Assembly (NCBI GenBank): GCA_022842785.1
Contig: JALHOW010000005.1
Location: forward strand, 1 to 64,000
Length of the DNA: 64,000 bases
Direction of reading: 5' to 3'
Source of the DNA: Hyphomicrobiaceae bacterium
GTDB taxonomy: Bacteria; Pseudomonadota; Alphaproteobacteria; Rhizobiales; Hyphomicrobiaceae
The first letter of the stretch is position 1; the number at the start of each line of letters is the position of its first letter. The notes under the pieces were generated by a model. That model saw nothing but the letters and a program-made list of their open reading frames with translations, searched no databases and was not told the origin of the DNA. Shown here piece after piece: positions 1-43,708 of the stretch. The position numbers were made by a program, and so were the translations under genes.

Positions 1-126
1 GCCGTAGTGCTCGTTGTGGCTGAGGGCGTGCGGCCGCGGGCCGACGAGAGACATCTCGCCCCTGAGCACGTTGAAGAGCTGCGGCAGCTCATCGATGCTC
101 GTGGCGCGCAGCGCGCGGCAGCGCAA
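1..126 (-). pseudogene. C-terminal part of a bacterial sugar transferase (initiating glycosyltransferase), apparently a remnant
   Basis: Read on the minus strand, this stretch encodes the conserved end of the bacterial sugar transferase family (WcaJ/ExoY-like, Pfam Bac_transf), including [19 protein letters not shown] and then [17 protein letters not shown]. These enzymes put the first sugar phosphate on undecaprenyl phosphate at the start of exopolysaccharide assembly. The gene runs off the left edge. Upstream of about position 126 the frame stays open to a stop at 421-423, but the residues no longer resemble the family: the membrane helix and the substrate-binding part that should come before are absent. 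I read it as a truncated or recombined copy. An assembly join at the window edge is also possible. It fits with the polysaccharide kinase further right. Confidence 0.6.
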
Positions 127-3481: not shown

Positions 3482-5257
3482 GTGAATAGGTATGTTATCG
3501 GAATTGGCGGCTACCTAGGTCACGACGCAAACGCAGCCATTGTTTCCAACCAGCAAGTTTTGTTTGCAGCGCAAGAAGAGCGCTATACCCGCAAGAAGCA
3601 CGACCTGGACTTTCCCAGTCATGCCATCCAGGAGTGCTTGTCTTTCGCATCCATTCGGGGCGAGGACGTCACAGACGTGGCGTTTGCCGAAAAGCCGATA
3701 CAATCAGCATTACAAGGGCACCTCGAATTGCCCTACATGCCGCTGCGCAATTTTTTGGGGAGGAGCCTACCTGATCGATTGTCGGGACGTTATCTCCCAA
3801 CCGCAAAAAGATTGTTTCCAAACGCAAATTTCCACTTCGTCTTGCATCATGTGTCGCACGTCGCAGGCGGCTTCGTCAGCTCTCCTTTTGACGAGGCGGC
3901 GTTTCTCTGTGTCGACGGAAAGGGCGAGGACTACTCCGCCACCATCGGCCGCGTCGACGCCAGGGGCGTCGAGATCGCCAGAGAACTGCCGTGGGAGAAC
4001 GGGCTCGGTTTGCTCTACACGATCGTGACCGGCTATCTCGGATTCCGCTCGTTTGGCTCTGAGTACAAAGTCATGGGATTGGCTCCGTACGGCGAGCCAC
4101 GCTTCGTAGATAAATTGCTGTCCCTCTGCGATACGGACGCCAACGGTGCCCTCCGTATGCGACACCACCTAAAGTTCGACGACGCGTCGACCACGAGGGG
4201 CATAGCGCTCGTCGAGGCTGCGCTCGGCGTGGCGGCGAGATCGAACACGGGATCATTACGCCCTGAGCACATCGATATCGCCACATCCATTCAACACCTG
4301 TTCGAAGACGAGATCGCGAAGATGGTGCGTTTTACGCGCACACTCGTCGAGAGCGACAATCTCCTGTTCTGCGGTGGCTGCGCGCAGAATTGCGTTGCCG
4401 CAGGCATGATCCGGCGTTCCGGAGCATATAAGCATGTCTACAATTCTCCGATTGGAGGAGACATGGGCAGCGGTCTCGGCGCGGCGTGTTTCGTCGCGGG
4501 CCGCAATGCTAATGCGATCGCCAAGACCAATGTGCAGGGCTTCTACCTCGGCAGCGAGCCTGGAACGGCTCCAGCGGAGGCCAGCCAGCACCGGATCAGC
4601 TATACAGGCAGCTTACATGAGTATGTCGCTTCCCGGATCGCCGATGGAAAAACGGTTGGCTGGGTGCGGGGCCGCATGGAGCTTGGCGCTCGCGCCCTCG
4701 GTGCGCGCAGCATCCTTGCGGATCCGCGCGTTCCTGGAATGCAATCCAAGCTGAACCTTGCCGTGAAATTTCGCGAAAGTTTCAGGCCTTTCGCGCCGGC
4801 AATCCTTGCCGAGCACGTTTCCGATTGGTTCGATATCAGCGAAGAGTCGGATTACATGAACTACACTGCCTACCTTCTGCCGAGTCGCCGTCGAGAAGGT
4901 TCTCTGCCGAGCAACGCCTCCCTCAAGGAGAGGCTGGATTTCACGAGAAGCGAGATCCAAAGCGTGGTTCACGTCGATTTCTCGGCGCGGCTGCAAACCG
5001 TACGAAGCGAAGTCCATCCCGACTTCCACAAGCTGATAAAATGCTTCTACGCGATTACTGGAATACCGATTGTCATAAACACGTCATTCAATGTCTCGGG
5101 GCAGCCGATCGTGCGGACAGCCGCTGAGGCTTGGCAGTGCTTCTTGCACACCAACCTCGACCTCCTCGTGATCAACGACGATGTTTTCGTGAATCCAAAC
5201 ACGAAAACCATGCAGGAAAAGCAGGAATGGTTGCAGCAATTCTCCGGCGCTGCCTGA
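3482..5257 (+). CDS. NodU/CmcH-family O-carbamoyltransferase
   Basis: This 591-residue protein matches the carbamoyltransferase family that moves a carbamoyl group from carbamoyl phosphate, through carbamoyl adenylate, onto a hydroxyl of a sugar or natural product (NodU on Nod factors, CmcH on cephalosporins, TobZ on tobramycin). The N-terminal Kae1-like domain shows GHDANAA at residues 13-19, the metal-binding HHVSH near 122-126 and FLCVDGKGED near 141-150. The C-terminal YrdC-like domain starts around 395 with GWVRGRMELGARALGARSI and contains FRPFAPAIL. Length is normal for the family. The start is a GTG with AGGAG seven bases upstream. It is the only candidate tailoring carbamoyltransferase near the NRPS/PKS genes, but could equally modify a surface polysaccharide. 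It converges on the tyrosine kinase gene. Confidence 0.9.
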   Translation: MNRYVIGIGGYLGHDANAAIVSNQQVLFAAQEERYTRKKHDLDFPSHAIQECLSFASIRGEDVTDVAFAEKPIQSALQGHLELPYMPLRNFLGRSLPDRLSGRYLPTAKRLFPNANFHFVLHHVSHVAGGFVSSPFDEAAFLCVDGKGEDYSATIGRVDARGVEIARELPWENGLGLLYTIVTGYLGFRSFGSEYKVMGLAPYGEPRFVDKLLSLCDTDANGALRMRHHLKFDDASTTRGIALVEAALGVAARSNTGSLRPEHIDIATSIQHLFEDEIAKMVRFTRTLVESDNLLFCGGCAQNCVAAGMIRRSGAYKHVYNSPIGGDMGSGLGAACFVAGRNANAIAKTNVQGFYLGSEPGTAPAEASQHRISYTGSLHEYVASRIADGKTVGWVRGRMELGARALGARSILADPRVPGMQSKLNLAVKFRESFRPFAPAILAEHVSDWFDISEESDYMNYTAYLLPSRRREGSLPSNASLKERLDFTRSEIQSVVHVDFSARLQTVRSEVHPDFHKLIKCFYAITGIPIVINTSFNVSGQPIVRTAAEAWQCFLHTNLDLLVINDDVFVNPNTKTMQEKQEWLQQFSGAA

Positions 5258-5498: not shown

Positions 5499-7739
5499 TC
5501 ATGCGGCCGCCCGGTCGCTGTAGTAATCGCGGAAACGCCCACCCTTGTAGCGCTCGACACTTTTGAGCGCTCGGGGATCAAACTTGTTCAACACGATGCA
5601 CAGGACCCGATCGAGGATCTCCGGGGCTTCGCCGAGGCACTCCAGGACAAGACGCTGGCTGGTCTTGCTCCACTCGACCACGAAGATGAAGGCGTCGCAG
5701 TGCCGCGCAATCATCTTGAAGTCGACGACCGCTGCCATCGGAGGCGTCTCAATGACAACCAAATCGTAGGCATCCCGAGTCGCATCGATCAGCTTCTGCA
5801 TGGCCGGCGTACCAAGCAGTTCCGCAGCGTTGGGTATCCGGTTGAGCAGAGGACAGGGAAGAACATCGAGCTGCAAACGGTCTTTCCGGATGACATACTT
5901 GGAGAATTCCGTTGGCTCTTCCAAAGCCTCTTTCAGGCCGACAGTCGCTTGCGGAGCAACCCTGTCCGTCAGCGAATGGCGATGGAAATCGGCATCGATG
6001 AGGAGTACGCGCTGCGAGGTATGGCAAGAGAAATGCGACGCGAGATTTGTCGCAACTGTCGTCTTGCCCTCGCCCGGGACGGACGAGACAACACACATCA
6101 CCTTCGCTCCAGTCTCTCTTTGAGCGATGTTGATCAATGCCCAGATGCCTCGCAGGGTCTCGGCAAACCTCGAATAGGGGATGTTCAGCGCATACTCACC
6201 GCCCCTAAGGGCAGCCTGATCACGCCGGCGCCCAACCTTCGGCAGTATTGCGCACGCCAGCCCGGTCGCTCGGCTCACCTGCTGAGCCGTCCTGAAGACG
6301 CCAAACGGGGAGTCCCGGGCAAGAAGCAGCGCCCCCCCCAAAAGAAATCCCATGAACGATCCGCCGGCAAGGATCAGGAGCCTCATCTTCGAGGCCTCCG
6401 TTTGAACCGGGGGAGTGGCGTGCGTGACGATCCGCGCATCCGGCGTGATGGACGGCTGCGTGGCGAACAACCTGTCCATATCGCTGGTGCGTTCCAGCAT
6501 CCGGTTGTAGAGGGCCCGAAGGGTCTCAGCCGCACTCCCGAGTTCTTTGATGCGGGCCTGTACGCCGCTATTGGAGCCTTCCTCGGTCAGCACCTGCGAT
6601 ACCGTCGTGGCGAGTTCGTCGTAGCGCGCTCTGGCAAGCTCGTATTCCCGGTCGAACGACCCGGCGAGACGCTTCTGCTCCTCGGATATCGCCGCGCGAA
6701 CCTCGTCCATCCGGCTGCGCATCTTCATAGCCGCGAAATGGTCTTGCCCCACGCGGCTCTCGATGTCGCTTGCGCGGGACGAAAGTTCGAGGTGCTGCGC
6801 GCGCAGCCTCGAAATCAAGTCATTATCCGGCGCGAACGGCCCGCCCAAATCGCCGCTCGCTCTGATCCGTTCGACACGCGATTTTGCTTCAGCCATCGCA
6901 ACCCGCGCAGCGGCCAGATGCGAATGCAGGCTGGTCAGCTGATCACCTGTAAGCGCGTTGCTTCCGGCGCCGACCAGATTGTGCGCCATCCTGTATTCGA
7001 GCAGTGCGCGCTCCGCATCAGCCGCTTGCCGCTTCAGCTCCCCGACGCGTTCCTGCACAAGCCTGCTGGCGATGTTCGTCGCATCGATCTTGACGGTAAT
7101 GTTTCCCTTCAGATACGCGTCGGCAACCGCATTGGCGATCCTTGCCGCCTTGACCGGATCCTTCGCGCTGAACGCCACATTGATGAGGGTTGGCACGTCG
7201 CCTCGCGTGACGGACAGGCCGCGCAGAACGCTGTCGAGAGCGGCCTTCTCAGGATCGATCGGCACCTCGCGAGGCGGGTCAGTCTGGAAAATGAAATGCC
7301 GAGCTTCGCGCACCAAGCCGCGCACGCGCTCCTTCAGATTCAGACCGGTCTCATCTTTTGCACCGTTGAACTCGGGATCTCTGGCCAGCCCCAATGTCCG
7401 AACCACCGGGAGAACGTTGCTCTCCGAGGAGATGATGTAGATCTGCCCCCAGGTGTCGCCGTCATCGATTGACGGCCCGTCGATGATCCTGTTGGTCTGC
7501 AGGTACTTCGTGACGGTTCTCTCGAATACGATGCGCGCATCCGCCTTATAAAGCGGTGGCATCGCTGAAAGCGCGGCAAACGAGGCGGCTATGCCGATCA
7601 AGGTGCCGAGGACGATGTAGAACCATCCACGTCGGACGATCCCGACCATGTCGGCTACGTCGAACTGATAGAATCCTCCGACCCCACCAGGGGTAACTTC
7701 ATCTACGTCAGGGCGAGTGTCAGATTGGGACATAAGCAA
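5499..7739 (-). CDS. Wzz/Wzc (ExoP)-type polysaccharide co-polymerase with tyrosine autokinase domain
   Basis: This 746-residue inner-membrane protein controls chain length and export of capsule or exopolysaccharide. The Wzz-type domain begins at about residue 25, with a first membrane helix near 38-60 (YIVLGTLIGIAASFAALSA). A long coiled-coil periplasmic part follows, then a second helix near 458-480. The cytoplasmic BY-kinase domain carries Walker A (VPGEGKTTVATNLA, about 553), Walker A' (VLLIDADFHRHS, about 580) and Walker B (DLVVIETPP, about 663). The tail has a small tyrosine cluster (RYKGGRFRDYYS) that could be autophosphorylated, shorter than the usual tyrosine-rich tail. Length and layout match ExoP/Wzc proteins. 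No polymerase or flippase gene is in the window, so the polysaccharide locus probably continues elsewhere. It is divergent from the NRPS gene. Confidence 0.93.
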   Translation of the reverse strand: MLMSQSDTRPDVDEVTPGGVGGFYQFDVADMVGIVRRGWFYIVLGTLIGIAASFAALSAMPPLYKADARIVFERTVTKYLQTNRIIDGPSIDDGDTWGQIYIISSESNVLPVVRTLGLARDPEFNGAKDETGLNLKERVRGLVREARHFIFQTDPPREVPIDPEKAALDSVLRGLSVTRGDVPTLINVAFSAKDPVKAARIANAVADAYLKGNITVKIDATNIASRLVQERVGELKRQAADAERALLEYRMAHNLVGAGSNALTGDQLTSLHSHLAAARVAMAEAKSRVERIRASGDLGGPFAPDNDLISRLRAQHLELSSRASDIESRVGQDHFAAMKMRSRMDEVRAAISEEQKRLAGSFDREYELARARYDELATTVSQVLTEEGSNSGVQARIKELGSAAETLRALYNRMLERTSDMDRLFATQPSITPDARIVTHATPPVQTEASKMRLLILAGGSFMGFLLGGALLLARDSPFGVFRTAQQVSRATGLACAILPKVGRRRDQAALRGGEYALNIPYSRFAETLRGIWALINIAQRETGAKVMCVVSSVPGEGKTTVATNLASHFSCHTSQRVLLIDADFHRHSLTDRVAPQATVGLKEALEEPTEFSKYVIRKDRLQLDVLPCPLLNRIPNAAELLGTPAMQKLIDATRDAYDLVVIETPPMAAVVDFKMIARHCDAFIFVVEWSKTSQRLVLECLGEAPEILDRVLCIVLNKFDPRALKSVERYKGGRFRDYYSDRAAA

Positions 7740-8267: not shown

Positions 8268-11200
8268 ATGAGCACGCTACCCAGCGCTCCGAGGCTGAAC
8301 TGTCTCCTGATCGGGGACGGCTCGCTGTTGACCCAATGTGGCGCGCTGCTGCTGGCTCACGGGCATCAGGTCGCCTGTGTCGTGACAGCCAGCGATGCTG
8401 TCGCCGATTGGGCACGGATGAACGGAGCACAGGTGGTGCCGCCAGGACGGGGTCTTGCCGATCGCCTTGCCGGCAAGAGCTACGACTGGGTGTTCAGCAT
8501 CGCGAACCTGTCCGTGGTCCCGGCTGCCGTCTTGCAGACGGCCACGATCGGCACCGCAAGCTTCCATGACGGTCCGTTGCCACGTTATGCCGGGATCAAC
8601 GCGCCAGCGTGGGCTCTCCTGGCCGGTGAGACAAGTCACGGTGTCACGTGGCACGCAATGTCTGACGTGGTCGATGAAGGCGACATCTACGTGCAGAGCG
8701 TCTTCGACATTGACGAGCACGAAACGGCCTTGACGATCAACACCAAGTGTTTCGAGGCGGGCCTTGCATCGTTCACGGAACTACTTGATCTGATCGAGAA
8801 AGGAGCGCTGGAGCGGCGCAAGCAGGAACTCGGCGAGCGCACGTACCACGCCCGGCACGATCGCCCCCATGCTGCCGCTACACTGAATTTTGCGACATCG
8901 ACAGCCGAAGTCGATCGAGTGGCACGCGCCCTCAACTTTGGTCAGGGCTATGTCAATCCGCTGGGGCTGCCGAAGATCAGGACGCAGCGCGGCGTGTACT
9001 TTGTACGCGAACTCGAGAAAGCCGAGAGCACAACAAATGATACCCCGGGGACGGTATGTGCTTCGGGCCAAGACGGCGCCGTCATCGCAACGGCAGATGG
9101 CGCGGTACGTATCAAGGCTCTGATAGACGCCACAGGCACATCGGTCGAGCTGACAACAGCTCTCTCCGCCGGGGAGAGCATCGCTTCTCTGAATGATGAA
9201 GACGGCGACGCACTTCGGGCGTTCACTGCGGCAACGGCCAAGCACGAAGCCTGGTTCTTGAAACACCTGCAGGCAGGACAATCTCCAGAGATCTACGGAT
9301 CGTTGCCTGCAACCAAGGACAACACACCGAACATCCGATCCTTTCCGTTGCCAGCTCTGTCGGGCTGGACGGACGAGCGCGCCATCGCGGCGATCGCCGG
9401 ATTTTTCTACAGGTCGGGCGCGCCCCTCCCGGTGCGCTTCGCCTATATCAATGACGCATGCGCGACCGACGCCCGGGCGCTTACCGGTTACGTGGCGCCA
9501 GCTCTGCCTTTGGTTGTCGATACTGCAGCCGACGTCACAGGTGACGCGCTTGTCGATGTGGTCAGCTCGGAGATCGCGCAACTCGTCGAACGGCGTGGAT
9601 ATCCGTCGGATTTGATTGTTCGTCATCCGAATGCATCCATTGAACCTTTCGCGGTTGCGATCACCACGGCAACCGACGCTTCGCACCTGCAGCCGGTTCC
9701 GAATGTCCTGCTAACGTTCATCGTATCCAAGACGAGTGGAGCGGCTTCGCTCGAGATCGACACCGCTCGCCTGCCGATCCGGGCGTGCGAGGCACTCATC
9801 GAAAGGCTCGACGCGTTCTTTCGCGACTTCTCCGCTGATGGCACGAGGCGCATCTCGGACCTGCGCGTGATGTCGGAGACCGAGGAACACGCCACCGTTC
9901 ACCAGTGTAACCAGACGAATGTCGCGTTCGATCGTTCGGCGCTGATTCACCGATTGATCGAAGCCCAGGTGGAACGTAGCCCTGATGCCATCGCTCTCGT
10001 TTGCGAGGATCGCTCGCTCACGTATCGCGAACTGGATCGTCAAGCCAACCGCGTTGCAAAGCAGCTTCTGGCGCGCGGCGCCGGTCCCGATAGGTTGGTC
10101 GGACTCTATTTGAACAGGTCGTGCGAGCTCGTGATCGGCGCGCTCGCGATCCTCAAGGCTGGCAGCGCTTACGTGCCGCTGGATCCGACCTATCCTACCG
10201 ATCGCATCGCCTACATGATCGAGGATAGCGAGCTAGGCCTGATCTTAAGCGGTCGAGATCTGACACCTCCCGTGAAATCCGGCAATGTCGGGATCGTCAT
10301 TGTCGAGGATGCACTCTCATCCGAAGATGCAGCGACGCCGCAAAGCGATGTCACCGCCGACCACTTGGCCTACGTGATCTACACCTCGGGATCTACGGGG
10401 CGACCCAAGGGCGTGATGGTCGAGCACCGCAACGCCGTCAACTTCTTCGCCGGCATGGATGGGCGCGTCCCGCGATCACACGAAGGCCAGGACGTCTGGC
10501 TTGCCGTCACAAGCCTGTCGTTCGACATCTCCGTGCTTGAGCTGTTCTGGACGCTGTCGCACGGCTTCAAAGTCGTCATCCAGACCGACAAGCGACACGA
10601 TGCGCCCGCACCGAGACGATCGGCGAAGCAGACGGGCGGCACGGATTTCAGCTTGTTCTTCTGGGGCAACGATGACGGCGTTGGCCCGCGCAAGTACGAA
10701 CTCCTCCTGGAAAGCGCGCGCTATGCCGACAGCCGCGGCTTTCGCGCTGTCTGGACGCCGGAGCGCCACTTTCACGCGTTCGGCGGTCCTTATCCAAATC
10801 CATCTGTAACCGGCGCGGCGGTGGCCGCGATTACGAAGAACCTCGATATACGCGCAGGCAGCTGCGTGCTGCCGCTCCAGCATCCGGCGCGTGTCGCCGA
10901 GGAATGGGCCGTCATCGACAATCTCAGCAATGGCCGTGCGGGCCTTGCCTTTGCCTCCGGCTGGATGCCAGAGGACTTTCTGCTTCGGCCGGAGAATGCA
11001 CCTCCCCACAACAAATCAGCGATGCTTCGCGACATAGAGACTGTACGGCGTCTCTGGCGCGGCGAGTCTGTGGCGTTTCGAGCGCCGGGCGACAAGGAAA
11101 TAAGTGTCGTTACACAACCGCGCCCCGTCAGCAAAGAGCTGCCCATCTGGGTTACCACGGCCGGCAATCCCGACACCTACCGTGACGCCGCCAGGCTTGG

Positions 11201-12935
11201 CGCCAATGTGCTTACGCATCTGCTTGGGCAGTCGATCGAAGAGGTCGGCGAGAAGATTGCGATCTATCGCCAGACGCTGGCCGAAACGGGCCGCAATCCC
11301 GCCGACTATACAGTGACACTGATGCTCCACACGATGATCGGCGAGGACAAGGAGCAGGTGCGCGACATCGTGCGCGAGCCGATGAAGGCTTATCTGCGCA
11401 GCGCAGTTGCCCTGATCAAGGAATACGCGTGGGCATTCCCGGCCTTCAAGAAGCCCGTCGGCGCGTCGAAGCCCATGGACGTCGATCTTCAGTCGCTCGA
11501 CCCGGACGAGCTGGATGCGATCATCGAGTTCGCATTCCTGCGCTACTTCGACGATAGCGGCCTCTTTGGAACGGTCGAGGATGCGCTCGCCCGGGTTGCA
11601 CAGGTCAAAGCGATCGGCGTCGACGAGATCGCCTGCCTCATCGACTTCGGCGTGCCCACTCAGTCTGTCATGAGGTCACTGGCACCGCTCGCAACAGTTG
11701 TTGCTGCTGCCAATCCCGCAAAGGGCGGTACAGCGACCGAAAGCGACTTCAGCGTCGGCAACCTCATCCGCACGTATGGCGTGACGCATCTGCAGTTCAC
11801 GCCTTCGATGGCAGCGATGCTGCTGATGGACGATGGCGCGCGTCAGGCCCTTGCTAAGGTGCGTCATCTGTTCGTTGGTGGCGAAGCGCTGCAAGCCGCC
11901 CTGGTGCGCGAGCTGCGGAGCGCAACGGCCGCCACGATTGAGAACATGTATGGTCCCACGGAGACGACCGTCTGGTCCTCGACGATGACGGTCGGCGAGC
12001 AGCCGGACGGTGTCGTCTCCCTGGGCACGCCCATTGCGAACACGCAGCTCTACATTCTAGATCAGGGGCTGCGGCCCGTGCCCACTGGGCAGCCCGGAGA
12101 GCTGCTGATTGGTGGTGATGGGGTGACGCGCGGATACCTCAAGCGCCCCGAGCTGACGGACGAACGGTTCCTGCCCAATCCGTTCACGCAGGAGGGCCGC
12201 ATGTATCGCACCGGCGATCTCGTGCGTCGGGACGAGCAAGGCGCGATCCAGTTCATCGGGCGGGTCGATCATCAGGTGAAGGTGCGCGGCTACCGCATTG
12301 AGCTAGGCGAGATCGAAGCGCATCTCGCAACTCACCCGTCTGTCGCGGAGGCCGTCGCTGTGGTGCGCGAGGACGAGCCGAATGACGTGCGTATCGTTGC
12401 TTACGTTCGGCCTCGTGGTTCCGATGTTTCAGACGAGGCATTGCGCGCGCATGTGCGCCAGAAGTTGCCCGACTACATGATGCCCGCGCACTTCGTTCCC
12501 TTGCAGAAATTTCCTCTCACACCGAACGCGAAGGTCGATCGCGCGCGCCTTCCGCGACCGGGGGACGTCCGGGCACCTAAGCCCGAGACGAAGCCTGTCG
12601 CGGAGCAGGCGTTCGTCGCCCCCGCTGGTGACGCTGCACAGCATATTGCTGACGCCTTCAAACGCATCCTCGGGTGCGAGCGTGTGGGCATGAACGACAA
12701 CTTCTTCAATCTGGGAGGCCATTCTCTGCTGGCGGTCCAACTTCACCGTGACCTCAAGACAAGTCTCACGTCGGAGCTGACCATCACGGATATCTACCGC
12801 TTCCCGACCGTCGCCGGGCTTGCTGCGCGGGTCACCAATCGAGGGGCGGCCAATGTTCAGCTCGGCAACGTCGCGGATCGTGCGGCAGCGCGGCGCAATG
12901 CGCTCGCCGCTCGTTCGGGGCGCCGTGGGAGCTGA
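8268..12935 (+). CDS. Single-module NRPS: formyltransferase / partial condensation / adenylation with embedded luciferase-like monooxygenase / carrier protein
   Basis: A 1555-residue synthetase. Residues about 10-180 are a methionyl-tRNA-formyltransferase-like domain (FHDGPLPRYAG near 103, DEGDI near 138), with its C-terminal subdomain to about 255. Residues about 365-535 resemble only the C-terminal lobe of a condensation domain; no HHxxxDG motif is present. Adenylation starts near 565 (YTSGSTGRPKG near 705, FDISVLE near 745). It is interrupted at about 790-1140 by an FMN-dependent luciferase-like monooxygenase, then resumes with NMYGPTETT near 1227, VKVRGYRIELGEIE near 1335 and the terminal lysine in NAKVDRARL near 1420. 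A carrier domain ends it (NLGGHSLLAVQL, near 1487; Ser is the phosphopantetheine site). The pocket residues I align suggest glycine. There is no thioesterase, so the product must pass on, probably to the nearby PKS. The ATG at 8268 is preferred over a TTG two codons upstream. Confidence 0.93.
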   Translation: MSTLPSAPRLNCLLIGDGSLLTQCGALLLAHGHQVACVVTASDAVADWARMNGAQVVPPGRGLADRLAGKSYDWVFSIANLSVVPAAVLQTATIGTASFHDGPLPRYAGINAPAWALLAGETSHGVTWHAMSDVVDEGDIYVQSVFDIDEHETALTINTKCFEAGLASFTELLDLIEKGALERRKQELGERTYHARHDRPHAAATLNFATSTAEVDRVARALNFGQGYVNPLGLPKIRTQRGVYFVRELEKAESTTNDTPGTVCASGQDGAVIATADGAVRIKALIDATGTSVELTTALSAGESIASLNDEDGDALRAFTAATAKHEAWFLKHLQAGQSPEIYGSLPATKDNTPNIRSFPLPALSGWTDERAIAAIAGFFYRSGAPLPVRFAYINDACATDARALTGYVAPALPLVVDTAADVTGDALVDVVSSEIAQLVERRGYPSDLIVRHPNASIEPFAVAITTATDASHLQPVPNVLLTFIVSKTSGAASLEIDTARLPIRACEALIERLDAFFRDFSADGTRRISDLRVMSETEEHATVHQCNQTNVAFDRSALIHRLIEAQVERSPDAIALVCEDRSLTYRELDRQANRVAKQLLARGAGPDRLVGLYLNRSCELVIGALAILKAGSAYVPLDPTYPTDRIAYMIEDSELGLILSGRDLTPPVKSGNVGIVIVEDALSSEDAATPQSDVTADHLAYVIYTSGSTGRPKGVMVEHRNAVNFFAGMDGRVPRSHEGQDVWLAVTSLSFDISVLELFWTLSHGFKVVIQTDKRHDAPAPRRSAKQTGGTDFSLFFWGNDDGVGPRKYELLLESARYADSRGFRAVWTPERHFHAFGGPYPNPSVTGAAVAAITKNLDIRAGSCVLPLQHPARVAEEWAVIDNLSNGRAGLAFASGWMPEDFLLRPENAPPHNKSAMLRDIETVRRLWRGESVAFRAPGDKEISVVTQPRPVSKELPIWVTTAGNPDTYRDAARLGANVLTHLLGQSIEEVGEKIAIYRQTLAETGRNPADYTVTLMLHTMIGEDKEQVRDIVREPMKAYLRSAVALIKEYAWAFPAFKKPVGASKPMDVDLQSLDPDELDAIIEFAFLRYFDDSGLFGTVEDALARVAQVKAIGVDEIACLIDFGVPTQSVMRSLAPLATVVAAANPAKGGTATESDFSVGNLIRTYGVTHLQFTPSMAAMLLMDDGARQALAKVRHLFVGGEALQAALVRELRSATAATIENMYGPTETTVWSSTMTVGEQPDGVVSLGTPIANTQLYILDQGLRPVPTGQPGELLIGGDGVTRGYLKRPELTDERFLPNPFTQEGRMYRTGDLVRRDEQGAIQFIGRVDHQVKVRGYRIELGEIEAHLATHPSVAEAVAVVREDEPNDVRIVAYVRPRGSDVSDEALRAHVRQKLPDYMMPAHFVPLQKFPLTPNAKVDRARLPRPGDVRAPKPETKPVAEQAFVAPAGDAAQHIADAFKRILGCERVGMNDNFFNLGGHSLLAVQLHRDLKTSLTSELTITDIYRFPTVAGLAARVTNRGAANVQLGNVADRAAARRNALAARSGRRGS

Positions 12936-12958
12936 GCGTTGTGAAGGATTGCGTTGTG

Positions 12959-14104
12959 ATGCAGCCGTACTTGGTTCGCATGGGAGCCATCCTGGCGGCT
13001 CTACTCATTCTCGCCGGCCAGGGAGGCTTAGCCATGGGTCAAGGGGCAAGCGAAGCGACCGGACCGTCGGCCTGGACGCCTAAGGATCACGTCCGCGCCT
13101 TCTACTCTGGCCATAGCCTCAGCGACGGAGTGCCGGAGGTTGTCGAACAGATCGCACGATCGCTCGGACACCGCCTGAACTTCGAGGTGCAATCTCTAGG
13201 CTATTCTCTTTTGCGTCAGCGGACAAAAGGGGAAGACCGTTCGGCCTCCGACTGGTCGGGCTATCGTGCCGGCAACAATCGGAGAGGCAGCGGTCTGAAC
13301 GTAGCCGAAGAGCTTCGACAACCCCGGCGACTGCCCCCTGGAGACAAGTACGATGCGCTCGTCGTGACCGAGCGTCATGAGCTTCCAGACGTCGCCGTCA
13401 AGGAACGCACGGCGTTTTATCTAGTCGACATGGCCAAGCATCTTCTTTCCGGCAATCCAAATGCCGAGATCTTGTTCTACCATACTTGGCTGTATATCGA
13501 TCCGGATGCGCCATGGCCCTGGATAGACTATGAGCGTGCGGTTTTGCCGATGTGGGAATGCGTGGCCAGCCGGGCAAACCTCGACTTGCCGAAGCGAGGC
13601 GATAGTCCTCGTATACGCGTGGTTCCCGGCGGAAGTGCTCTGGCGGAACTCGTAGCAGCGCTGTGGGACGGCAAGGTACCCGGCATTGCCCCCAGCACTC
13701 CTGGTGCGCGTGTGCGGCTTCTCTTTTCCGACAACGTGCACATGAGCGACATCGGTCGCTACTACATCGCTCTAGTGCACTACGCGGTTCTGTTCGGCCG
13801 GAGTCCCGAGGGCGCCATCATCCCGAGGCAGTTGTCACAGGAAGCAGGCCGGCATCTGCAGACAATGGCGTGGCAGTATGCTTCTGCTTACGGCCAGAGC
13901 GCCAATGCCGCCGGAGAGCGGGATATGGCTACGTGCCGAACCCTAATGCAGGAAGAGATCTGCCCGGCCTACATGGCTTTCCGGCAGCGCAAAAGGATAC
14001 CGGTGGTGGCCGCGCTCAAGCGCCAGCTCGACACATACATGTGCCGGCACGCTTATACCGACCCGCAGGATCCCGACAATCCTTTCGCCTCTCCGCAAAA
14101 GTAA
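12959..14104 (+). CDS. Exported SGNH/GDSL-hydrolase-like protein
   Basis: A 381-residue protein starting six bases after a GTG alternative at 12941; the ATG at 12959 has AAGGA about ten bases upstream and gives a cleaner signal peptide (VRMGAILAALLILAGQGGLA). YSGHSLSDG near residue 45 stands where SGNH hydrolases have the GDS block with the catalytic serine. DNVHMSDIG near 260 matches the closing DxxH block. These enzymes cleave or transfer esters, often O-acetyl groups on glycans. It lies 23 bases behind the NRPS stop on the same strand and so is probably cotranscribed with it. This suggests a role in maturing or deacylating the product outside the cytoplasm, although a glycan esterase is as likely. 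It converges on the PKS gene with 26 bases between the stops. Confidence 0.7.
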   Translation: MQPYLVRMGAILAALLILAGQGGLAMGQGASEATGPSAWTPKDHVRAFYSGHSLSDGVPEVVEQIARSLGHRLNFEVQSLGYSLLRQRTKGEDRSASDWSGYRAGNNRRGSGLNVAEELRQPRRLPPGDKYDALVVTERHELPDVAVKERTAFYLVDMAKHLLSGNPNAEILFYHTWLYIDPDAPWPWIDYERAVLPMWECVASRANLDLPKRGDSPRIRVVPGGSALAELVAALWDGKVPGIAPSTPGARVRLLFSDNVHMSDIGRYYIALVHYAVLFGRSPEGAIIPRQLSQEAGRHLQTMAWQYASAYGQSANAAGERDMATCRTLMQEEICPAYMAFRQRKRIPVVAALKRQLDTYMCRHAYTDPQDPDNPFASPQK

Positions 14105-14130
14105 TCGGCGCTACAAGGCGCGTGTCCTCT

Positions 14131-17100
14131 TCAGCTCGCAACCGTGCGCAGTGTTTCTGATTGTGCCGCCAGGCGCGGCTCACTTTCGAGCCGTGGCTCA
14201 GCGTCGCGAACCATGTGCTCCCGGACTTGTCGCTGAAGATATGACTTCAGCCGCCGAGCCAGAACACTGACGTGCGGCTGTTCGCACATGGACGAATGGT
14301 CACCCGGGCACTCGTTGACCTCGATATCGTCGAGAACCAATCTCTCCCAGCCGTTCAAGCGCCCGATATCGACGCCAAGCACGAAGCCGGTGTTGGCCTT
14401 GAAAAGCATGGCGTTGCCCGCGTAGGCGGTGGGCTGGTAGGTCGCGAAAGCTTCGTTCCAAGTATCAGCGATGTTCTCGATGCGATAGTGATATGGGAAC
14501 AGCCTGCGCAGCGGCTTGCGCACAACCGCTGCGACCGCTTCCACGCGCCGATTCCAAACACCGACGGCGGCACCCACGATGTAGCGCAGGCCTCCCTCGC
14601 GAAAACCTTCGGCATGTCGACCTATCTTGCCCGCGATAGACGGCAACTCGACGCCGGGCGCCACCGAGTCGAGGAAGACCAGCGCTCCGATCCGCTCTCC
14701 CTGAGCGACAAGCTGCTTGGACATTTCGAATGCCACCACGCCACCACCCGAATAACCGCCGAGATAATACGGTCCGTCAGGCTGCTGGCGCTTGATCTCC
14801 GCGATGTAGTGCGCGGCCATTTCCGGAATAGTCCGGTGCAGTTTCGACATGCCGTCCAAGCCTTGCGGTTGCAGGCCATAGAACGGCTGATCGATACCCA
14901 TCTGAAGGGCCAACGCACGCAAATTGAGCAGGTTGCCGCCCATGCCGGCCACGCAGTAGAACGCTGGGCCCTTGCCGAGGGGCTGGACAGGAACCAGCGA
15001 CGAGTACTCCGACTTAGAGGACGCGACAGTGGCGTCGGCATTCACGTGCTGGCCGCCTCCAGAGGAACGCTTCTGTGGAGACTGCGTATCGAGCAGCGCG
15101 GCGAGCGGACGTATTGTCGGCCTCTCGAAGAGCGTTGAGAGGGGGAGCGAGATGCCGTAGTGCTTCTTAACCGCCACGAAAAGTCGAACCGCGTGGAGGG
15201 AATGTCCTCCCAGCTGGAAGAAGTCGTCGTTAACGCCAATCTGGCGTATGCCGAGCAGCTCCGACCAGACGCGCGCAAGAAGTTTTTCGCTGTCCGTTTC
15301 CGGTGCTTCGTAAGTCGTATCGAGATCGGGCCGGGAGAATCCTCCCGCTCCGTCATCGTCGGCATCGCTGAGGGAGACTTCGACGTCGCCAGCCTCGAGC
15401 GAGCGATCCCAAGCCCCAACATCCATCGACGAGGCAATGCACTGCACCAGATTGGGCTGTGCCATGATGCGATCGAACGCCTCTAGTCCTTCTGCAGGCG
15501 TAATGGCATCGCGCAGGACTTTCTCAAGAGCCGTATCACTTGTCGACACGGTGTTGCTTGCGGCTGTCGCTCCAGCGAGGGCTGAGTTGACATCGATCCG
15601 CCGCATCCCGAAACGGCTGATCTCGCAGAAGGGGCGCCCATCGGCATCCATCAGCGTGATATCGAAGAACGCCTCGCCATTTCCTGTCTCCGGCCGAACG
15701 CGAACGTGGCTGAAGAAGCGCTGCGGCATACGGTCGAACAGACGGAGACGTCCGTACAGCACGGGAACGTAGAAATCGGTGTCGGGATCAAAGCCGGGGA
15801 TGAGACGCTGAGAACCGCCGGTCGCCATGTCGAGCATAGCGGGATGCAGCAGGTAGTGCTCCAGGTCCGGCGCAAACTTCGGATCGAGCGCAAGCTCCTG
15901 CAGCGCTTCGCGCCTGCCGAAGTGACCTGACCTCACGTTTGCCCACCTCGGCCCAAAATCGACGAAACTCGTGTCGCCAGTGCCACCGCGCAGCACGCTG
16001 AGATGGCTAGTGCAACGGTCGATGATCGACTGAAGGTCGACCGGAGCTGGAGCGGCGCCGTGGTAGGTGCTTACGTCGCCGATAACATGAGGCAGACTGC
16101 GCACGTCGTCGCCGGCGGTGCGCATGGTGATCTGGCTCGCGCCTCCCCCGTCCGCCACCTCTATGACGAGACGACGTGTGGTGCCTTCCGCAACCTGAAA
16201 CGGCATGAGGAAGGTCAGGTCGTTGATCTCGATCGAGGTCGGAGCTTTGCCGACGCTGAAGGCTGCGCGCGCGAGTTCCACGAACGTGGTGCCGGAGAGC
16301 AGCGCCATCCCATTCTTGATCTTGTGCTCGGACAGCAGCCAGTGCCGGTCGATCGAGAAGTCCGTGACAAAGGTGCGGCCGGTATCGGGATCATCGGAGT
16401 AGCCGTCGAGTGCAGGATGCGCCACCAAGGACGAAGGCGCGCGACCGTGTTGCTGTTCGTTGCTCGCACGCGCCGCCATGCCGATGTCGCGCCACGCATT
16501 CCAGTTGATCACGACTGTGCGCCCTGGCGCGCGCGAAGCACGATCGACCGCAAAAGCATCCAGGAAGGCGTTGGCCGCGGTGTAGTCAACTTGCCCAGGA
16601 AGGCCCAAGCTCGAGGCAATCGAAGAGAACAGGATGAAAAAGTCGAGTGGCTCCTGAAGCAACCGATCCAAATGGATCGTGCCCGCCACTTTCGGAAGAA
16701 GTACGCGCTGCATCGAGCTCAGCGACTTGGTTTCGATGGGCTCGTCGTCCATCACGCCGGCAGCGTGAATGACGCCAGTTACCAGTCCGAACTTGGCGCG
16801 GATCCGCTGCAGCGCCACCTCGACGCGATCGCGGTCCGCCACATCACAGGTGAAAACTTCGACCTCCGAGCCGAGCTGTCTGATCGCGCGAATCCGGCGC
16901 AAGCGCTGCGCCCCGACGCTCTCTTCCGGAAGGACGCGCAGGACATCGTCCCACTCCGACTCGGGCGGCAGTTCGCTGCGTGCGAGCAGCGCGAGCTTGA
17001 CTTTCTTCAGCCGAGCAAAGTGCTCCGCAATCTCGAGGGCGATGCCGCCGAGCCCACCCGTAACGACGTAGACGCCGCCCTCGCGCAGCCAGGGTGCACC

Positions 17101-20100
17101 CGGATTTGCCGCCGGAACCCGCAACTTGTTCAGCGACTGGACCCAGCGAGATCCACCACGCAGCGCAACGAGACGCTCGTCGGGAGGGGCGTTCAACTCG
17201 ATGAGGACAGCGTCCTCGACCTGACGCGTCGTGCGCGCCATCCAGACGCCCTCGACATCGATGCAGCGCGTCTTGATGTGCGGGGTCTCGCGTGGTGCCA
17301 CCAGTACCGGACCGACGAGCGTCGCTCGCAGCGGATCGCAGGGTTCATCGTTGACCTGGGCGAGCTGACGCGTCACGACGCTGAAGTTGACAGCCTCCCC
17401 CTGACGACCAAGTGCACGGATGATGGCCGTCGGCACGAAAAATGTGGCGCGGAGCTTCTCCTGAAAGTCCTCTTGCCTCACGCGCGAACCGAGCGTGGTG
17501 GACAACCGATTGAGACCGCAGCAGTAGACCACGTCGGTCGGCTGGAAGCCCGTTTCTCTGAGTTCGTCCTGAAGCTCCTGATGCTGGCTCGACGACCTGA
17601 GGTCTATGTTCCAGAGCCGATCATGGATCTTCTTGAACTCGGAACCATCGGTGACAACAACCACACTGCCCTCGAGCCGCTTCGCGATCCGCTTTGCGAG
17701 CGTCGATCCGTCCGAGTAAATGAGCCAGCGCCGCTCTGCACCATCCTTTGCGTCGGCGATCTCATCAGTTCGCGACAGAAGCGGAGACCGCACCCAAGCC
17801 GGCGCGGCGAACCAATCCTCGATCGACTCATGCTTCAGCGTGGCGGCATTGGCGGACCGCGGCGCATGATGCGGAGCGATCCAGTAAGGTGCGTGCTGAA
17901 ACGGATAGCTCGGCAGCGGGATGCGCCGCGTCTCAATGCCGGCCCACAGCCGCTCCAACGGCACCGGAATTCCCGTTGCCCAGGCGCGCCCGACAGCACC
18001 GAGAAAGTGTACGCGGTCGTCGACTGCTTCATCGGCGTGCGGAAGGCTGTTGATCACCTGATTGGCGTTGATCGAGCCCTGTGCCTTCACAAGGGACGAC
18101 ATGGCGCGGCCTGGCCCAACCTCGATGTAGATTCTCTCGGGGTCTTGCGCCACTACGCGCATGCCTTCAGCGAATTTGACCGTCGAACTCAAATGTGCGC
18201 GCCAGTAGGCGGGATCACGGGCCTGCGCGTCCGTGAGCCACGTGCCTGTGAGGTTCGAGGCGATCGGTATCTTCGGAGCAGCGAGAGAAGCGGTCTTTAG
18301 GAAGCTCTCGAAGCGTTCGAGAATCGGCTGCAACATTCGGGAATGAGCTGCGATGTCGATTGGAACGCGGATCGCTTGAATGTCGTCCGCGGCGAGAGCA
18401 GCTCGGAAACGATCAAGCGCATCGTTGTTTCCGGAGACGACACATAGCTCAGGGGCGTTCACCGATGCCAGATCGAGGTCCGGCGGCAAGCGGGCGAGAA
18501 GGTTCTCCTCGGCGAGCGGAACGCTCATCATTCCACCGGCTGGAATCTCGGTGAATAGCCGGCCACGCAGATGCACGAGCTCGACGGCCGTCTTGTAGCT
18601 CAGCACTCCGGCGATGCAGGCGGCAGCATTCTCACCCATGGAATGCCCGATAAGCGCAACGGGCTTAATGCCCCAGCTCATCCACAACCGCGCGACAGCG
18701 ATCTCCGTTATGAGGATGGCCGGGAGTTGCAGCGCCGGATTGAGAAAGCGCTGCGCTGCGTCAGGCGTTGCCTCGTCGAGCCATAGCGCGCGGATCTCAG
18801 AGGCAACGTCAGCAGGGAGGTAGCCAAGCCCTTCATCGACGGTCTTGCGAAAAACCGGGTCCTCTCGATAAAGCGACCGGCCCATGCCTGGATGTTGAGC
18901 CCCACCACCAGGGAAGAGGAAGACCGTTCCCGAAGCTTTTTCGACGAGGGTATGAGCGGCAGCGGCGCTCCGGTCCGTTGCGCGCAAAACTGAGATAGCC
19001 TGCGTACGGTCGCGGGCAGCGACGGCGCGCCGGTGCGCAAAGTGCGACCGGCCATGAAAGAGCGTCGATGCGATGTCGGGGAGCGCGGTGTTGGCATCGG
19101 ACGCCAGGAAATCTGCGAGCCGCCGACCACTCTCGTCCAACGCCTTTCGGCTCTTGGCTGATAGAACGAGGAGATGCGGCCCCTCGCCGTCGCCGCGCGC
19201 ACCAATCGGCCGAGCTGGAGCCTGCTCGAGCACGGCGTGCGCGTTAGTTCCCCCGACGCCCAGCGAGTTGACGCCGGCCCGCCGCGGCCCTTGGGTCTCC
19301 GGCCACGGCGTCAGGCGATCACAGACCAGGAACGGGCCGGCCGCGAAATTAATGGCCGGGTTTGGTTTCTCGTAACCGAGCGTAGGCGGGATCTCGCCGT
19401 GCTCCAAAGCCAGCGTGGCCTTGATCAGGCTCACGACGCCAGCAGCCGTATCGAGATGACCGATGTTCGACTTGACCGAGCCGACACGACAGAATCCCTT
19501 CTTGTCGGTCGAATGCCTGAACGCGTCGGTCAGCGCTTCAATTTCGATCGGATCGCCTATGCGTGTTCCCGTGCCGTGACATTCGACGTACTGCACCGTA
19601 TCGGCCTTGATACCGGCCAAGATGTGCGCTTCGACAATCGCTTCGGCCTGCCCCGTCACACTCGGCGCCAGGTAGCCTGCCTTGCTCGCCCCGTCGTTGT
19701 TGATGGCAGTTGCCTTGATCACGGCCCGGATCGGATCACCGTCGGCAATGGCATCCGCTAGTCGGCGCAGCACGACAACGCCCGCGCCGCTGCCGAACAC
19801 GGTACCCTCCGCACGATGGTCGAAGGCGCGGCAGTGGCCGTCGGGCGAAAGGATCTCTCCGTCCTGGTAGATGTAACCACGGCGGTGCGGCAGCTCGATC
19901 GTCACTCCGCCTGCCAACGCCATGTCGCATTCGCCGTTGATCAGGCTCTGACAGGCATAGTGGATGGCCACGAGCGAGGTCGAACAAGCAGTCTGTACGT
20001 TGACGCTCGGACCGTGCAGATCGAACAGGTGAGAAACCCGGGTTGCGAGAAAGTCTTTATCGTTGCCGGTATGCCGAAGAAGGAACATACCGACCTGGTC

Positions 20101-20532
20101 GAGAAGTTTTTGGTGGCTGCAAACGTTGAAGTAGAAATAGCTACCCATTCCGCAGCCAGCGAATACAGCCACTGGACCATTGAGGCTTTTGGCCGGGCGC
20201 GCAGAACTCTCGATGGCTTCCCAGGCGCATTCCAAAAAATGGCGGTGCTGCGGGTCCATGATAGCCGCCTCCTGGCGGCTGAACCCAAAGAAGTCCGGAT
20301 CGAACAGCTCCATGCCATCGAGGTCAGCGGTGCGAGCGACATAGTTCTTGTCGCGGAGCTTGTCGGGCGCTTCGCCGCCCGCGAGCAGCTCCTCCTCCGT
20401 CAGCGAGCGAATGGATTCAACACCATCCCTGAGGTTTCGCCAGAATTGCTCGACGGAACTGGCACCGGGCACACGAAGAGCCATGCCAACGATAGCAATA
20501 TCCGTTACTGGAGGATCGAAATGCTCGGTCAT
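14131..20532 (-). CDS. Single-module type I polyketide synthase, KS-AT-KR-DH-ACP-TE
   Basis: A 2133-residue PKS. KS at about 8-430 has the active cysteine in TACSTSL (about 181) and histidines in HGTGT (about 319) and NIGH (about 355). AT at about 530-850 has GHSMG (about 631) and IAAHS at the substrate-selectivity site, which I cannot read as clear malonyl or methylmalonyl. KR at about 880-1340 has YVVTGGLGG (about 1157), an MDD motif of B-type KRs and the catalytic Ser/Tyr (FSSIASS, VDYTAAN). A dehydratase-fold domain follows at about 1385-1640, with its histidine in EHKIKNG and DMATGGSQ, but Ser replaces the usual Pro after LL. ACP carries GGHSLHAV near 1774. TE at about 1860-2100 has GYSGGG near 1927 and a late GDHSS. 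The terminal TE makes this the likely release module. The start codon has no clear Shine-Dalgarno. Confidence 0.95.
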   Translation of the reverse strand: MTEHFDPPVTDIAIVGMALRVPGASSVEQFWRNLRDGVESIRSLTEEELLAGGEAPDKLRDKNYVARTADLDGMELFDPDFFGFSRQEAAIMDPQHRHFLECAWEAIESSARPAKSLNGPVAVFAGCGMGSYFYFNVCSHQKLLDQVGMFLLRHTGNDKDFLATRVSHLFDLHGPSVNVQTACSTSLVAIHYACQSLINGECDMALAGGVTIELPHRRGYIYQDGEILSPDGHCRAFDHRAEGTVFGSGAGVVVLRRLADAIADGDPIRAVIKATAINNDGASKAGYLAPSVTGQAEAIVEAHILAGIKADTVQYVECHGTGTRIGDPIEIEALTDAFRHSTDKKGFCRVGSVKSNIGHLDTAAGVVSLIKATLALEHGEIPPTLGYEKPNPAINFAAGPFLVCDRLTPWPETQGPRRAGVNSLGVGGTNAHAVLEQAPARPIGARGDGEGPHLLVLSAKSRKALDESGRRLADFLASDANTALPDIASTLFHGRSHFAHRRAVAARDRTQAISVLRATDRSAAAAHTLVEKASGTVFLFPGGGAQHPGMGRSLYREDPVFRKTVDEGLGYLPADVASEIRALWLDEATPDAAQRFLNPALQLPAILITEIAVARLWMSWGIKPVALIGHSMGENAAACIAGVLSYKTAVELVHLRGRLFTEIPAGGMMSVPLAEENLLARLPPDLDLASVNAPELCVVSGNNDALDRFRAALAADDIQAIRVPIDIAAHSRMLQPILERFESFLKTASLAAPKIPIASNLTGTWLTDAQARDPAYWRAHLSSTVKFAEGMRVVAQDPERIYIEVGPGRAMSSLVKAQGSINANQVINSLPHADEAVDDRVHFLGAVGRAWATGIPVPLERLWAGIETRRIPLPSYPFQHAPYWIAPHHAPRSANAATLKHESIEDWFAAPAWVRSPLLSRTDEIADAKDGAERRWLIYSDGSTLAKRIAKRLEGSVVVVTDGSEFKKIHDRLWNIDLRSSSQHQELQDELRETGFQPTDVVYCCGLNRLSTTLGSRVRQEDFQEKLRATFFVPTAIIRALGRQGEAVNFSVVTRQLAQVNDEPCDPLRATLVGPVLVAPRETPHIKTRCIDVEGVWMARTTRQVEDAVLIELNAPPDERLVALRGGSRWVQSLNKLRVPAANPGAPWLREGGVYVVTGGLGGIALEIAEHFARLKKVKLALLARSELPPESEWDDVLRVLPEESVGAQRLRRIRAIRQLGSEVEVFTCDVADRDRVEVALQRIRAKFGLVTGVIHAAGVMDDEPIETKSLSSMQRVLLPKVAGTIHLDRLLQEPLDFFILFSSIASSLGLPGQVDYTAANAFLDAFAVDRASRAPGRTVVINWNAWRDIGMAARASNEQQHGRAPSSLVAHPALDGYSDDPDTGRTFVTDFSIDRHWLLSEHKIKNGMALLSGTTFVELARAAFSVGKAPTSIEINDLTFLMPFQVAEGTTRRLVIEVADGGGASQITMRTAGDDVRSLPHVIGDVSTYHGAAPAPVDLQSIIDRCTSHLSVLRGGTGDTSFVDFGPRWANVRSGHFGRREALQELALDPKFAPDLEHYLLHPAMLDMATGGSQRLIPGFDPDTDFYVPVLYGRLRLFDRMPQRFFSHVRVRPETGNGEAFFDITLMDADGRPFCEISRFGMRRIDVNSALAGATAASNTVSTSDTALEKVLRDAITPAEGLEAFDRIMAQPNLVQCIASSMDVGAWDRSLEAGDVEVSLSDADDDGAGGFSRPDLDTTYEAPETDSEKLLARVWSELLGIRQIGVNDDFFQLGGHSLHAVRLFVAVKKHYGISLPLSTLFERPTIRPLAALLDTQSPQKRSSGGGQHVNADATVASSKSEYSSLVPVQPLGKGPAFYCVAGMGGNLLNLRALALQMGIDQPFYGLQPQGLDGMSKLHRTIPEMAAHYIAEIKRQQPDGPYYLGGYSGGGVVAFEMSKQLVAQGERIGALVFLDSVAPGVELPSIAGKIGRHAEGFREGGLRYIVGAAVGVWNRRVEAVAAVVRKPLRRLFPYHYRIENIADTWNEAFATYQPTAYAGNAMLFKANTGFVLGVDIGRLNGWERLVLDDIEVNECPGDHSSMCEQPHVSVLARRLKSYLQRQVREHMVRDAEPRLESEPRLAAQSETLRTVAS

Positions 20533-22342: not shown

Positions 22343-22566
22343 AGCCTTGCGAAAAATCCCAATCCAATCAGTCGCGTAGATCAACCATTCCCTGAACAGT
22401 AGCACGGACCCTAGCAACAACATGGCTATGGCGATCTAGTGTGGCGGATATTAACCGATAGCTCCCATCATTCCTACGTATGCCCCCACGTGCTTTTCGA
22501 TGCAGAAGCGCTGACGCGTCGTGCGCCAGGGGGCCAGTTTGGGGGGCTCACGCCGAGGATGCATTG

Positions 22567-23601: not shown

Positions 23602-23611
23602 TGGGGCGACC

Positions 23612-25694: not shown

Positions 25695-26104
25695 AATTCA
25701 ACTTCGGCGAGAGCCCAACCTCCAGAGCGGGGCGAAGAGCGGGCGCCGTCAGCAGCAGACACCTCTCGTTAAGCCTACCGTAGCGCCATGGCGCCTGTGT
25801 CGGCGACACTACTGGCTGGCACGCCCCTTGCTCTTCTTCCCTTTGCCTATGTGGAAGGACAGTTCTCGCGACATGAAAACCTAGCATCTCGCAATCGGGG
25901 ACGGGAGTATCGCACTGGCGGACGCGCGTTGACCGTAGAATACAGTTACTGGAGCTCCTCACAACCTCCTGTTGCTTGCACTGAAGGCGTAATTGACGTC
26001 GCGTCGTGATTCGAGAAAGCTGGCTAGGTTATGTGGGCGCATTAGTTTGGAGATGCGGACGTATGTTGGAGTTTGGCGCAGGAGCGGAGAACAAGAAGAG
26101 TTCG
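25695..26104. other. Intergenic region before the Hint-domain gene
   Basis: About 410 bases with only short frames lacking motifs or good ribosome-binding sites. The promoter of the Hint-domain gene should lie in the last 150 bases. No tRNA-Gln terminator with a T run was seen. Confidence 0.4.

Positions 26105-42692: not shown

Positions 42693-42696
<4 letters not shown>
41698..42696 (-). CDS. Dipeptide/oligopeptide-type ABC transporter ATPase (DppF/OppF-like)
   Basis: 332 residues. Walker A GESGCGKS at 59-66, Walker B following FSGGQRSRIGIARALAVNPEFLVCDEA, and the C-terminal oligopeptide-family extension with PPSGCHFHPRCPHAFDRC. Its ATG overlaps the stop of the first ATPase gene (ATGA), so the pair is translated together. 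A heterodimer with the neighbouring ATPase would drive import of the substrate bound by the protein encoded at 45677-47263. Confidence 0.94.

Positions 42697-43708
<1,012 letters not shown>

Follow-up and report, generated by a model that had tools for sequence, protein, structure and literature searches.

Introduction

A 64,000-nucleotide stretch of DNA from a Hyphomicrobiaceae bacterium (contig JALHOW010000005.1, assembly GCA_022842785.1; this whole stretch is called the window below) encodes a nonribosomal peptide synthetase (NRPS) and a polyketide synthase (PKS), each part of which is known from other systems. In the linear gramicidin synthetase LgrA, a formyltransferase (FT) domain is fused before an adenylation-carrier (A-T) start module, and its A and T domains align with those of the window NRPS. 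Modules of the MtaG/MelG type, from the myxothiazol and melithiazol lines, use glycine (Gly), hold a monooxygenase (MOX) in the A domain, and are terminal, with a thioesterase (TE) on the same protein. The name of the TIGR04020 MupA/Atu3671 monooxygenases refers to the oxygenase alone and says nothing of the FT, the PKS partner, or the locus; in RefSeq, plasmid copies go by the name "MupA/Atu3671 family FMN-dependent luciferase-like monooxygenase" (7 among the 30 matches listed). The rhizobial capsule synthase RkpA is alike in being a PKS-like synthase in a capsule locus and differs in being fatty-acid-like and in having no known NRPS partner. Exopolysaccharide loci of the Wzx/Wzy type share with the surroundings of our pair in relatives the flippase, O-antigen-ligase/polymerase type, chain-length, export, and sugar-transferase genes, of which the window holds parts only, and to our knowledge none has been described as carrying an NRPS-PKS line.

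The window locus departs from LgrA in that its FT has a C-terminal subdomain and its best folds are methionyl-tRNA formyltransferase (Fmt) and ArnA, the LgrA FT matching weakly by sequence (14.9 bits), and in that the NRPS has a half condensation domain (half-C) before the A domain, a monooxygenase within it, and a PKS-TE partner. The placement of an FT before A-T is shared with LgrA. With the MtaG/MelG-type modules, the NRPS shares a glycine code (DILQFGMVWK, against DILQLGMIWK in four Gly-MOX domains in an excerpt of a survey, PMC12283262) and a MOX integrated in the A domain, and it differs in being a start module rather than a terminal one, with an FT cap, no TE on the NRPS, and a polysaccharide setting. 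Here, we show that the NRPS and PKS are a conserved, co-diverging pair and that the pairs of relatives usually sit in exopolysaccharide loci. This association is the new point. Among the papers listed by searches of an open-access library, we found no description of it; since subscription papers lay outside that scope, an earlier description may exist.

Architecture of the NRPS and PKS

The NRPS open reading frame (ORF) is on the + strand, ends at 12935, and starts at 8262 (TTG) or 8268 (ATG), giving a protein of 1557 or 1555 aa with the order FT, half-C, A domain split by a TIGR04020 monooxygenase, and carrier. The PKS ORF covers 14131-20532 on the - strand (2133 aa) in the order ketosynthase (KS), acyltransferase (AT), ketoreductase (KR), dehydratase (DH), acyl carrier (ACP), and TE. 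These coordinates and domain strings had been given correctly in the original prediction, as the ORF limits, Pfam, and TIGR04020 agree, and the domains support its view of a start module that combines an FT with an embedded oxygenase and is paired with one TE-ended PKS. The two genes are convergent and not one operon, with a gene for an SGNH-hydrolase-like protein between them.

8268..9167 (approximate limits), + strand: NRPS FT region with C-terminal subdomain, from Pfam, AlphaFold2 (AF2), and Foldseek
9195..9902 (approximate limits), + strand: NRPS half-C, the C-terminal lobe of a condensation domain, from hhalign and AF2
9960..10598, + strand: NRPS A domain, first part, ending at motif FDISVLELFWTL, from PF00501 at residues 567-779
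10647..11699, + strand: NRPS TIGR04020 luciferase-like monooxygenase (LLM) inserted in the A domain, residues 796-1146
11679..12533, + strand: remainder of the NRPS A domain, code DILQFGMVWK, from Pfam and alignment
12645..12833, + strand: NRPS carrier (T) domain, GGHS, from PF00550
19372..20502, - strand: PKS ketosynthase (TACSTSL, ECHGTGT, NIGHLD), from Pfam and motifs
17968..18924, - strand: PKS acyltransferase (GHSMGE), from Pfam and motifs
16486..17076, - strand: PKS ketoreductase (DYTAAN), from Pfam and motifs
15589..16419, - strand: PKS dehydratase, motif His and Asp kept and motif Pro changed to Ser in the window, from Pfam and motifs
15091..15282, - strand: PKS acyl carrier (GGHS), from Pfam and motifs
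14233..14889 (end approximate), - strand: PKS thioesterase (GYSGG, GDH), from Pfam and motifs
14131..17850, - strand: unusually divergent part of the PKS after the AT, with an identity step at about residue 895, from sliding identity and per-domain identities

On the NRPS, Pfam assigned Formyl_trans_N (1.2e-14), AMP-binding in two stretches, Bac_luciferase (3.1e-45), AMP-binding_C, and PP-binding, and no TE domain. On the PKS, it assigned ketoacyl-synt N and C, Acyl_transf_1, KR, PKS_DH_N, PS-DH, PP-binding, and Thioesterase, and no enoylreductase (ER) domain. The KS, AT, KR, ACP, and TE motifs are all kept in the window PKS, and the best solved relatives of its KS-AT are modular PKSs.

The FT C-terminal subdomain matched Formyl_trans_C at E 4.5e-4 (20.8 bits, slightly under the 21.1 cut-off). 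An AF2 model of the FT and half-C (window 8268-9956) had a mean predicted local distance difference test score (pLDDT) of 94.6, and a Foldseek search with it returned, as best folds for the FT part, methionyl-tRNA formyltransferase 3tqq and the isolated ArnA FT domain 2bln (TM-score 0.84 each, normalised to target length); among the 50 matches listed, it was the FT part that matched, and none bears on the half-C. Pfam gave no match to the half-C region (window 9165-9900) even at E 10. We rejected the idea that this voids the half-C call, as hhalign, run with a profile of the region from aligned homologues against a template of 3 sequences, aligned residues ~312-562 over 233 columns with the C-terminal part of a true condensation domain, one that is followed directly by its A domain (E 7.1e-11; probability 97.1%). 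A PF00668 condensation domain was not found in the window's own genome.

The monooxygenase insert scores 476.5 bits against the TIGR04020 model, above the curated cut-off of 244.45, the solved PuwE chain 6ket aligns with NRPS residues 793-1153, and the insert is predicted to oxidise the carrier-bound residue in a flavin-dependent reaction. The A-domain code reads DILQFGMVWK, and the pattern DILQ-x-G-[ML]-[IV]-W is present in all 79 aligned NRPSs, the window included. Because this code resembles the DILQLGMIWK that the survey excerpt gives as common to four Gly-activating domains with a MOX (PMC12283262), glycine is the predicted substrate.

We take the N-x-H motif and an Asp to be the catalytic residues of formyltransferases; among the 78 sequences with data, 77 have NFH as the motif and the window alone has SFH, while the Asp is kept in 78/78. 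The sister copy L046 reads NFH. Since Ser replaces the catalytic Asn, formylation by the window copy is doubtful.

The NRPS and PKS are conserved as a pair

A scan of genome contigs was passed by 216 relatives, so the protein that joins an FT to an A domain with an LLM, FT/A(LLM), is not rare; the loci analysed are the best 80 of these 216. They come mostly from Hyphomicrobiales and Rhodobacteraceae, with some Burkholderiales and metagenome-assembled genomes (MAGs) labelled Holophagae, Planctomycetota, Rhodothermales, Salinivenus, and Ignavibacteriaceae. Within the window's order, the FT-half-C part was found at E <= 1e-60 in 10 of 397 sampled genomes, a count that may be low because scoring was limited to the three best candidates from each genome.

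A PKS match above 400 bits lies within the fetched flanks of 65 of the 80 loci. For the 15 loci without one, 13 genomes were searched (L041 and L046 falling outside the search), and 11 held a PKS match, partial in L051 and L116; no PKS match was found in the L053 and L100 genomes. The original prediction had named rare co-occurrence of the two genes in related genomes as something that would refute it, and these counts do not bear out such rarity. The NRPS and PKS distance matrices correlate over 56 loci (Mantel r = 0.94; maximum of 2000 permutations, 0.20), a correlation to which related hosts contribute. The order of the pair varies, being divergent in rhizobia, PKS, glycosyltransferase (GT2), NRPS in many Rhodobacteraceae, tandem in Burkholderiales, and convergent in Hyphomicrobium. 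Given its conservation in relatives, we rejected the ideas that the pair is peculiar to the window or that the two genes are neighbours by accident.

Two loci carry a variant line. The NRPS of G399 (L173:6541-12141, - strand; about 1860 aa) has a full Condensation domain, an A domain with LLM, a methyltransferase (MT), and a carrier, that is, C-A(LLM)-MT-T, and its locus contains the same kind of PKS, a phosphopantetheinyl transferase (PPTase) gene, Bac_transf, a Wzc-like gene, and an SGNH protein that shares 75% identity with that of the window across 351 aa. A similar NRPS of about 1860 aa, typed only from BLAST and from the first part of its sequence, is encoded in G297 (L176:3042-8618, + strand) with a PKS and an SGNH protein at 68% to the window's. 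Between the two lines the cap changes, and the PKS and SGNH protein stay. FT-half-C units at ~28% identity also occur at longer NRPS/PKS genes on rhizobial and Mycetohabitans plasmids, one overlapping the start of a 29-kb gene on Sinorhizobium meliloti ml59 pSymA, so the start unit is also found outside the present system.

Most pairs of relatives lie among exopolysaccharide genes

ORFs of the 80 loci and of 30 kb of the window were clustered, and the clusters were typed by Pfam on representatives. Recurrent families were PPTase and polysaccharide flippase (35 loci each), WecG and Bac_transf (24 each), and the SGNH family (23, window included), with further clusters of several glycosyltransferases, Wzz/Wzc, Wza, Wzy-type, and GH9 proteins. 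At least 1 polysaccharide-type gene is present in 72 of the 80 loci and at least 3 in 52. In a control, 20 loci from 20 genomes were set against 20 fixed-position 20-kb segments, on contigs of 19 of those genomes that also hold a Bac_transf gene: at least 1 such gene occurred in 20/20 loci vs 1/20 segments, and at least 3 in 15/20 vs 0/20.

Because the control families came from the test loci, we also ran a Pfam neighbour scan and a Bac_transf count, both largely free of bias from family definition. Comparing the four nearest non-core ORFs per locus with the four central ORFs per control segment (80 vs 80), the scan found among the former Glycos_transf_2 (10), Polysacc_synt_3 (8), WecG (7), Glycos_transf_1 (6), Bac_transf (3), and PPTase (12), none of which reached 2 in the controls; the control matches listed include one to Capsule_synth. 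Bac_transf was found in 13 of 36 loci (a count that leaves out L066 and L109), with 0.68 expected from whole-genome counts.

Of 34 cluster PPTase genes, 32 share the strand of the NRPS and begin no more than 50 nt from its stop codon, as does the SGNH gene in 7 loci, window included. Four genes of Aminobacter pAM01 overlap end to end by 1 to 4 nt: the NRPS, the PPTase, a glycosyltransferase, and a hypothetical gene in the position that the SGNH gene has in the A. niigataensis locus L043. After them come GH9, O-antigen ligase, export protein, and flippase genes. In Ruegeria conchae, PKS-GT2-NRPS-PPTase is set inside a polysaccharide region. The same-genus genome G002 has a long polysaccharide locus that holds both NRPS and PKS, with the NRPS followed by GT1, GT1, GH9, Wzy, SGNH, GT1, PKS, Wzc, Wza, WecG, GT2, Wzx, GT1, GMC, and Bac_transf. 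Because most relatives' pairs lie among exopolysaccharide genes in this way, the stand-alone compact metabolite cluster of the original prediction is unsupported.

Other genes of the window and of its genome

Genes around the window pair include the following.

12941..14104, + strand: SGNH-hydrolase-like protein (GHSL, D-x-x-H), starting 5 nt after the NRPS stop codon, from an alignment of 22
5499..7739, - strand: Wzz/Wzc-like chain-length protein with ATPase domain, from Wzz and AAA_31
1..119, - strand: Bac_transf (sugar transferase) fragment at the contig edge, from PF02397 at 10-117
3482..5257, + strand: NodU-type carbamoyltransferase, from Carbam_trans_N and _C, the NodU model lying far under its cut-off

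An AF2 model of the SGNH protein (pLDDT 83.6) matched 4i8i (DUF4886) alone under E 0.001 in Foldseek, with weaker matches including CE2 esterases and a lipopolysaccharide acetyltransferase domain, making the protein a candidate polysaccharide esterase or acyltransferase. The Wzc-like protein, encoded upstream of the NRPS, clusters with Wzc-like genes from 6 relatives' loci, and a Wzc-like gene also adjoins the NRPS on the sister contig L046 (64% identity over 81 aa at the contig edge). An intact flippase, polymerase, sugar-transferase, and export set was not found beside the window pair, where the Wzc-like gene is the only member; WecG and a flippase are on contig C11. Window 1-119 is 119/119 identical to C11:1-119, where Bac_transf, WecG, and flippase follow, and window 105-167 and 199-373 resemble C11:1721-1785 and 2501-2675 in the WecG region, so that the pieces in window 1-373 are either left over from a duplicated polysaccharide locus or the mark of an assembly junction. 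The window's genome has two ACPS-family matches, one a 274-aa ORF on contig C6, and both are on other contigs.

Membership of the carbamoyltransferase in the NRPS-PKS system is uncertain. A 778-aa ORF (971-3304) that adjoins its gene belongs to no Pfam family and, on visual inspection, has an N-terminus like a signal sequence. Further along the window are aldo/keto reductase and GMC oxidoreductase genes (22480-25213), GMC genes recurring in relatives' loci, though their link to the window gene depends on single-linkage clustering; a gene for a Hint_2-domain protein (26006-26953); and oligopeptide-type ABC transporter genes with an amidohydrolase gene (42693-49570). Elsewhere in the genome, an A-domain ORF of about 1360 aa lies at C6:207938-212017, and frames of similar length recur across the family.

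Discussion

The recurrence of the pair in exopolysaccharide loci raises the question of what the two proteins make. We lean toward the view that the line makes a small acyl group for a cell-surface polysaccharide, a leaning that attaches to the polysaccharide role of the family and not to the exact structure. From the domain anatomy, the A domain would load glycine onto the NRPS carrier, the FT would cap its amine, and the flavin monooxygenase would oxidise the alpha carbon to give alpha-hydroxyglycine, which may stay as such or fragment to a glyoxylyl unit; hydroxylation by LLMs is described for assembly lines in an excerpt of PMC8739492. The half-C would be structural. The PKS would then add one malonate unit, reduce it, and dehydrate it, and the TE would release a C4 acyl group, such as 4-formamido(-4-hydroxy)but-2-enoyl, or transfer it to an amine or hydroxyl on a sugar in a Wzx/Wzy-type repeat unit. 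Outside the cytoplasm, the acyl group may be edited or transferred by the SGNH protein. The small product of the original prediction is supported, as a prediction, by this scheme.

Several points weigh against a polysaccharide role. Linkage of the genes is observed, attachment of the acyl group is what we infer from it, and the TE could release a free acid. Eight of the 80 loci, 5 to 25 kb long, have no typed polysaccharide gene, the G016 locus (NRPS 42% identical) has a single weak Wza-like match, and the G297 stretches match no polysaccharide-type cluster. The segment control favours the loci through its choice of families; many of the loci belong to related rhizobia and Rhodobacteraceae, so they are not independent observations, and the non-Pseudomonadota loci are MAGs. 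We identified no dedicated acyltransferase common to the loci. In the window itself, support consists only of the Wzc-like gene, the SGNH gene, and the broken sugar-transferase fragment, and the FT has a Ser for its catalytic Asn. A free small metabolite, namely a formyl-hydroxyglycyl-ketide acid that is perhaps cyclised to an amino-butenolide and secreted as a signal, antimetabolite, or chelator, would be consistent with the terminal TE and complete domains and with the TolC-family gene that adjoins the PKS in Aminobacter; the polysaccharide genes would then be regular neighbours or would glycosylate the product. There is precedent for such company in the palmerolide cluster, which makes a free metabolite and, in the excerpt of PMC8739492, also holds glycosyltransferase and polysaccharide-synthesis genes. 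Likewise, a flavin monooxygenase is proposed to form the alpha-hydroxycarboxylate chelators of the siderophore fabrubactin in PMC12971057, a paper that does not contain the word formyl; fabrubactin is also mentioned in an excerpt of PMC11837247. We nevertheless regard a free metabolite as rather unlikely, given that the polysaccharide setting recurs across rearranged gene orders and many genera and that the PPTase and glycosyltransferase genes are close or overlapping. Even less probable is an iterative PKS whose product, a lipid or primer headed by the formyl-glycyl group, anchors or starts the polysaccharide; the single PKS module and the chain-length and sugar-transferase genes nearby in relatives would suit such a role, but the best solved KS-AT relatives are modular (iteration would still be possible) and the PKS has no ER domain. 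The gene setting thus makes a polysaccharide substituent the likeliest destination of the acyl group and a free metabolite the next.

The window copy may itself be altered or decaying, given its SFH motif, the DH change, the divergence of the PKS after the AT, and the lack of an ACPS-family match on the contig. Its KS and AT are 80% and 69% identical to those of L038, conserved as in relatives, with a drop after residue ~895, and the PKS residual is the lowest of 56. A clean recent block transfer of the SGNH gene and the PKS rear from a G399- or G297-like donor was considered and rejected: as the SGNH proteins are 75% and 68% identical, yet the post-AT PKS domains are only 24-49% (G399) and 28-47% (G297) identical, the divergence is real. 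In this genome, formylation could have been lost, the post-AT PKS replaced or relaxed, and the polysaccharide genes broken or moved, an account that is compatible with the family-level explanation and that we hold to be possible, if on the unlikely side. The contrast between the window FT and its sister copy with NFH, the low PKS residual with its step, the Pro-to-Ser change in the DH, the location of both ACPS matches, and the fragmentary sugar-transferase gene all argue for it. Both giant ORFs are nevertheless open, with the A, KS, AT, KR, ACP, and TE motifs kept, the single Ser could be a sequencing error, and the 274-aa ORF on contig C6 could act as a PPTase.

For the family as a whole, we tentatively propose, with rather less assurance than the surface-polysaccharide role itself, that a widespread and previously undescribed NRPS-PKS pathway builds custom acyl groups, formyl-glycyl-ketide in the FT line and with another cap in the C-A(LLM)-MT-T variant, that are installed on Wzx/Wzy exopolysaccharides, the sugar coats of bacteria thus being decorated by assembly-line chemistry. 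If so, gene clusters that genome mining would report as sources of small molecules would have their place in the synthesis of exopolysaccharides, both in rhizobia and in methylotrophs, marine Rhodobacteraceae, and others, tying assembly-line enzymology to surface and biofilm chemistry. The pathway would also provide a route to amino-acid-derived acylation of sugars and give a function to orphan FT-A(LLM)-T genes.

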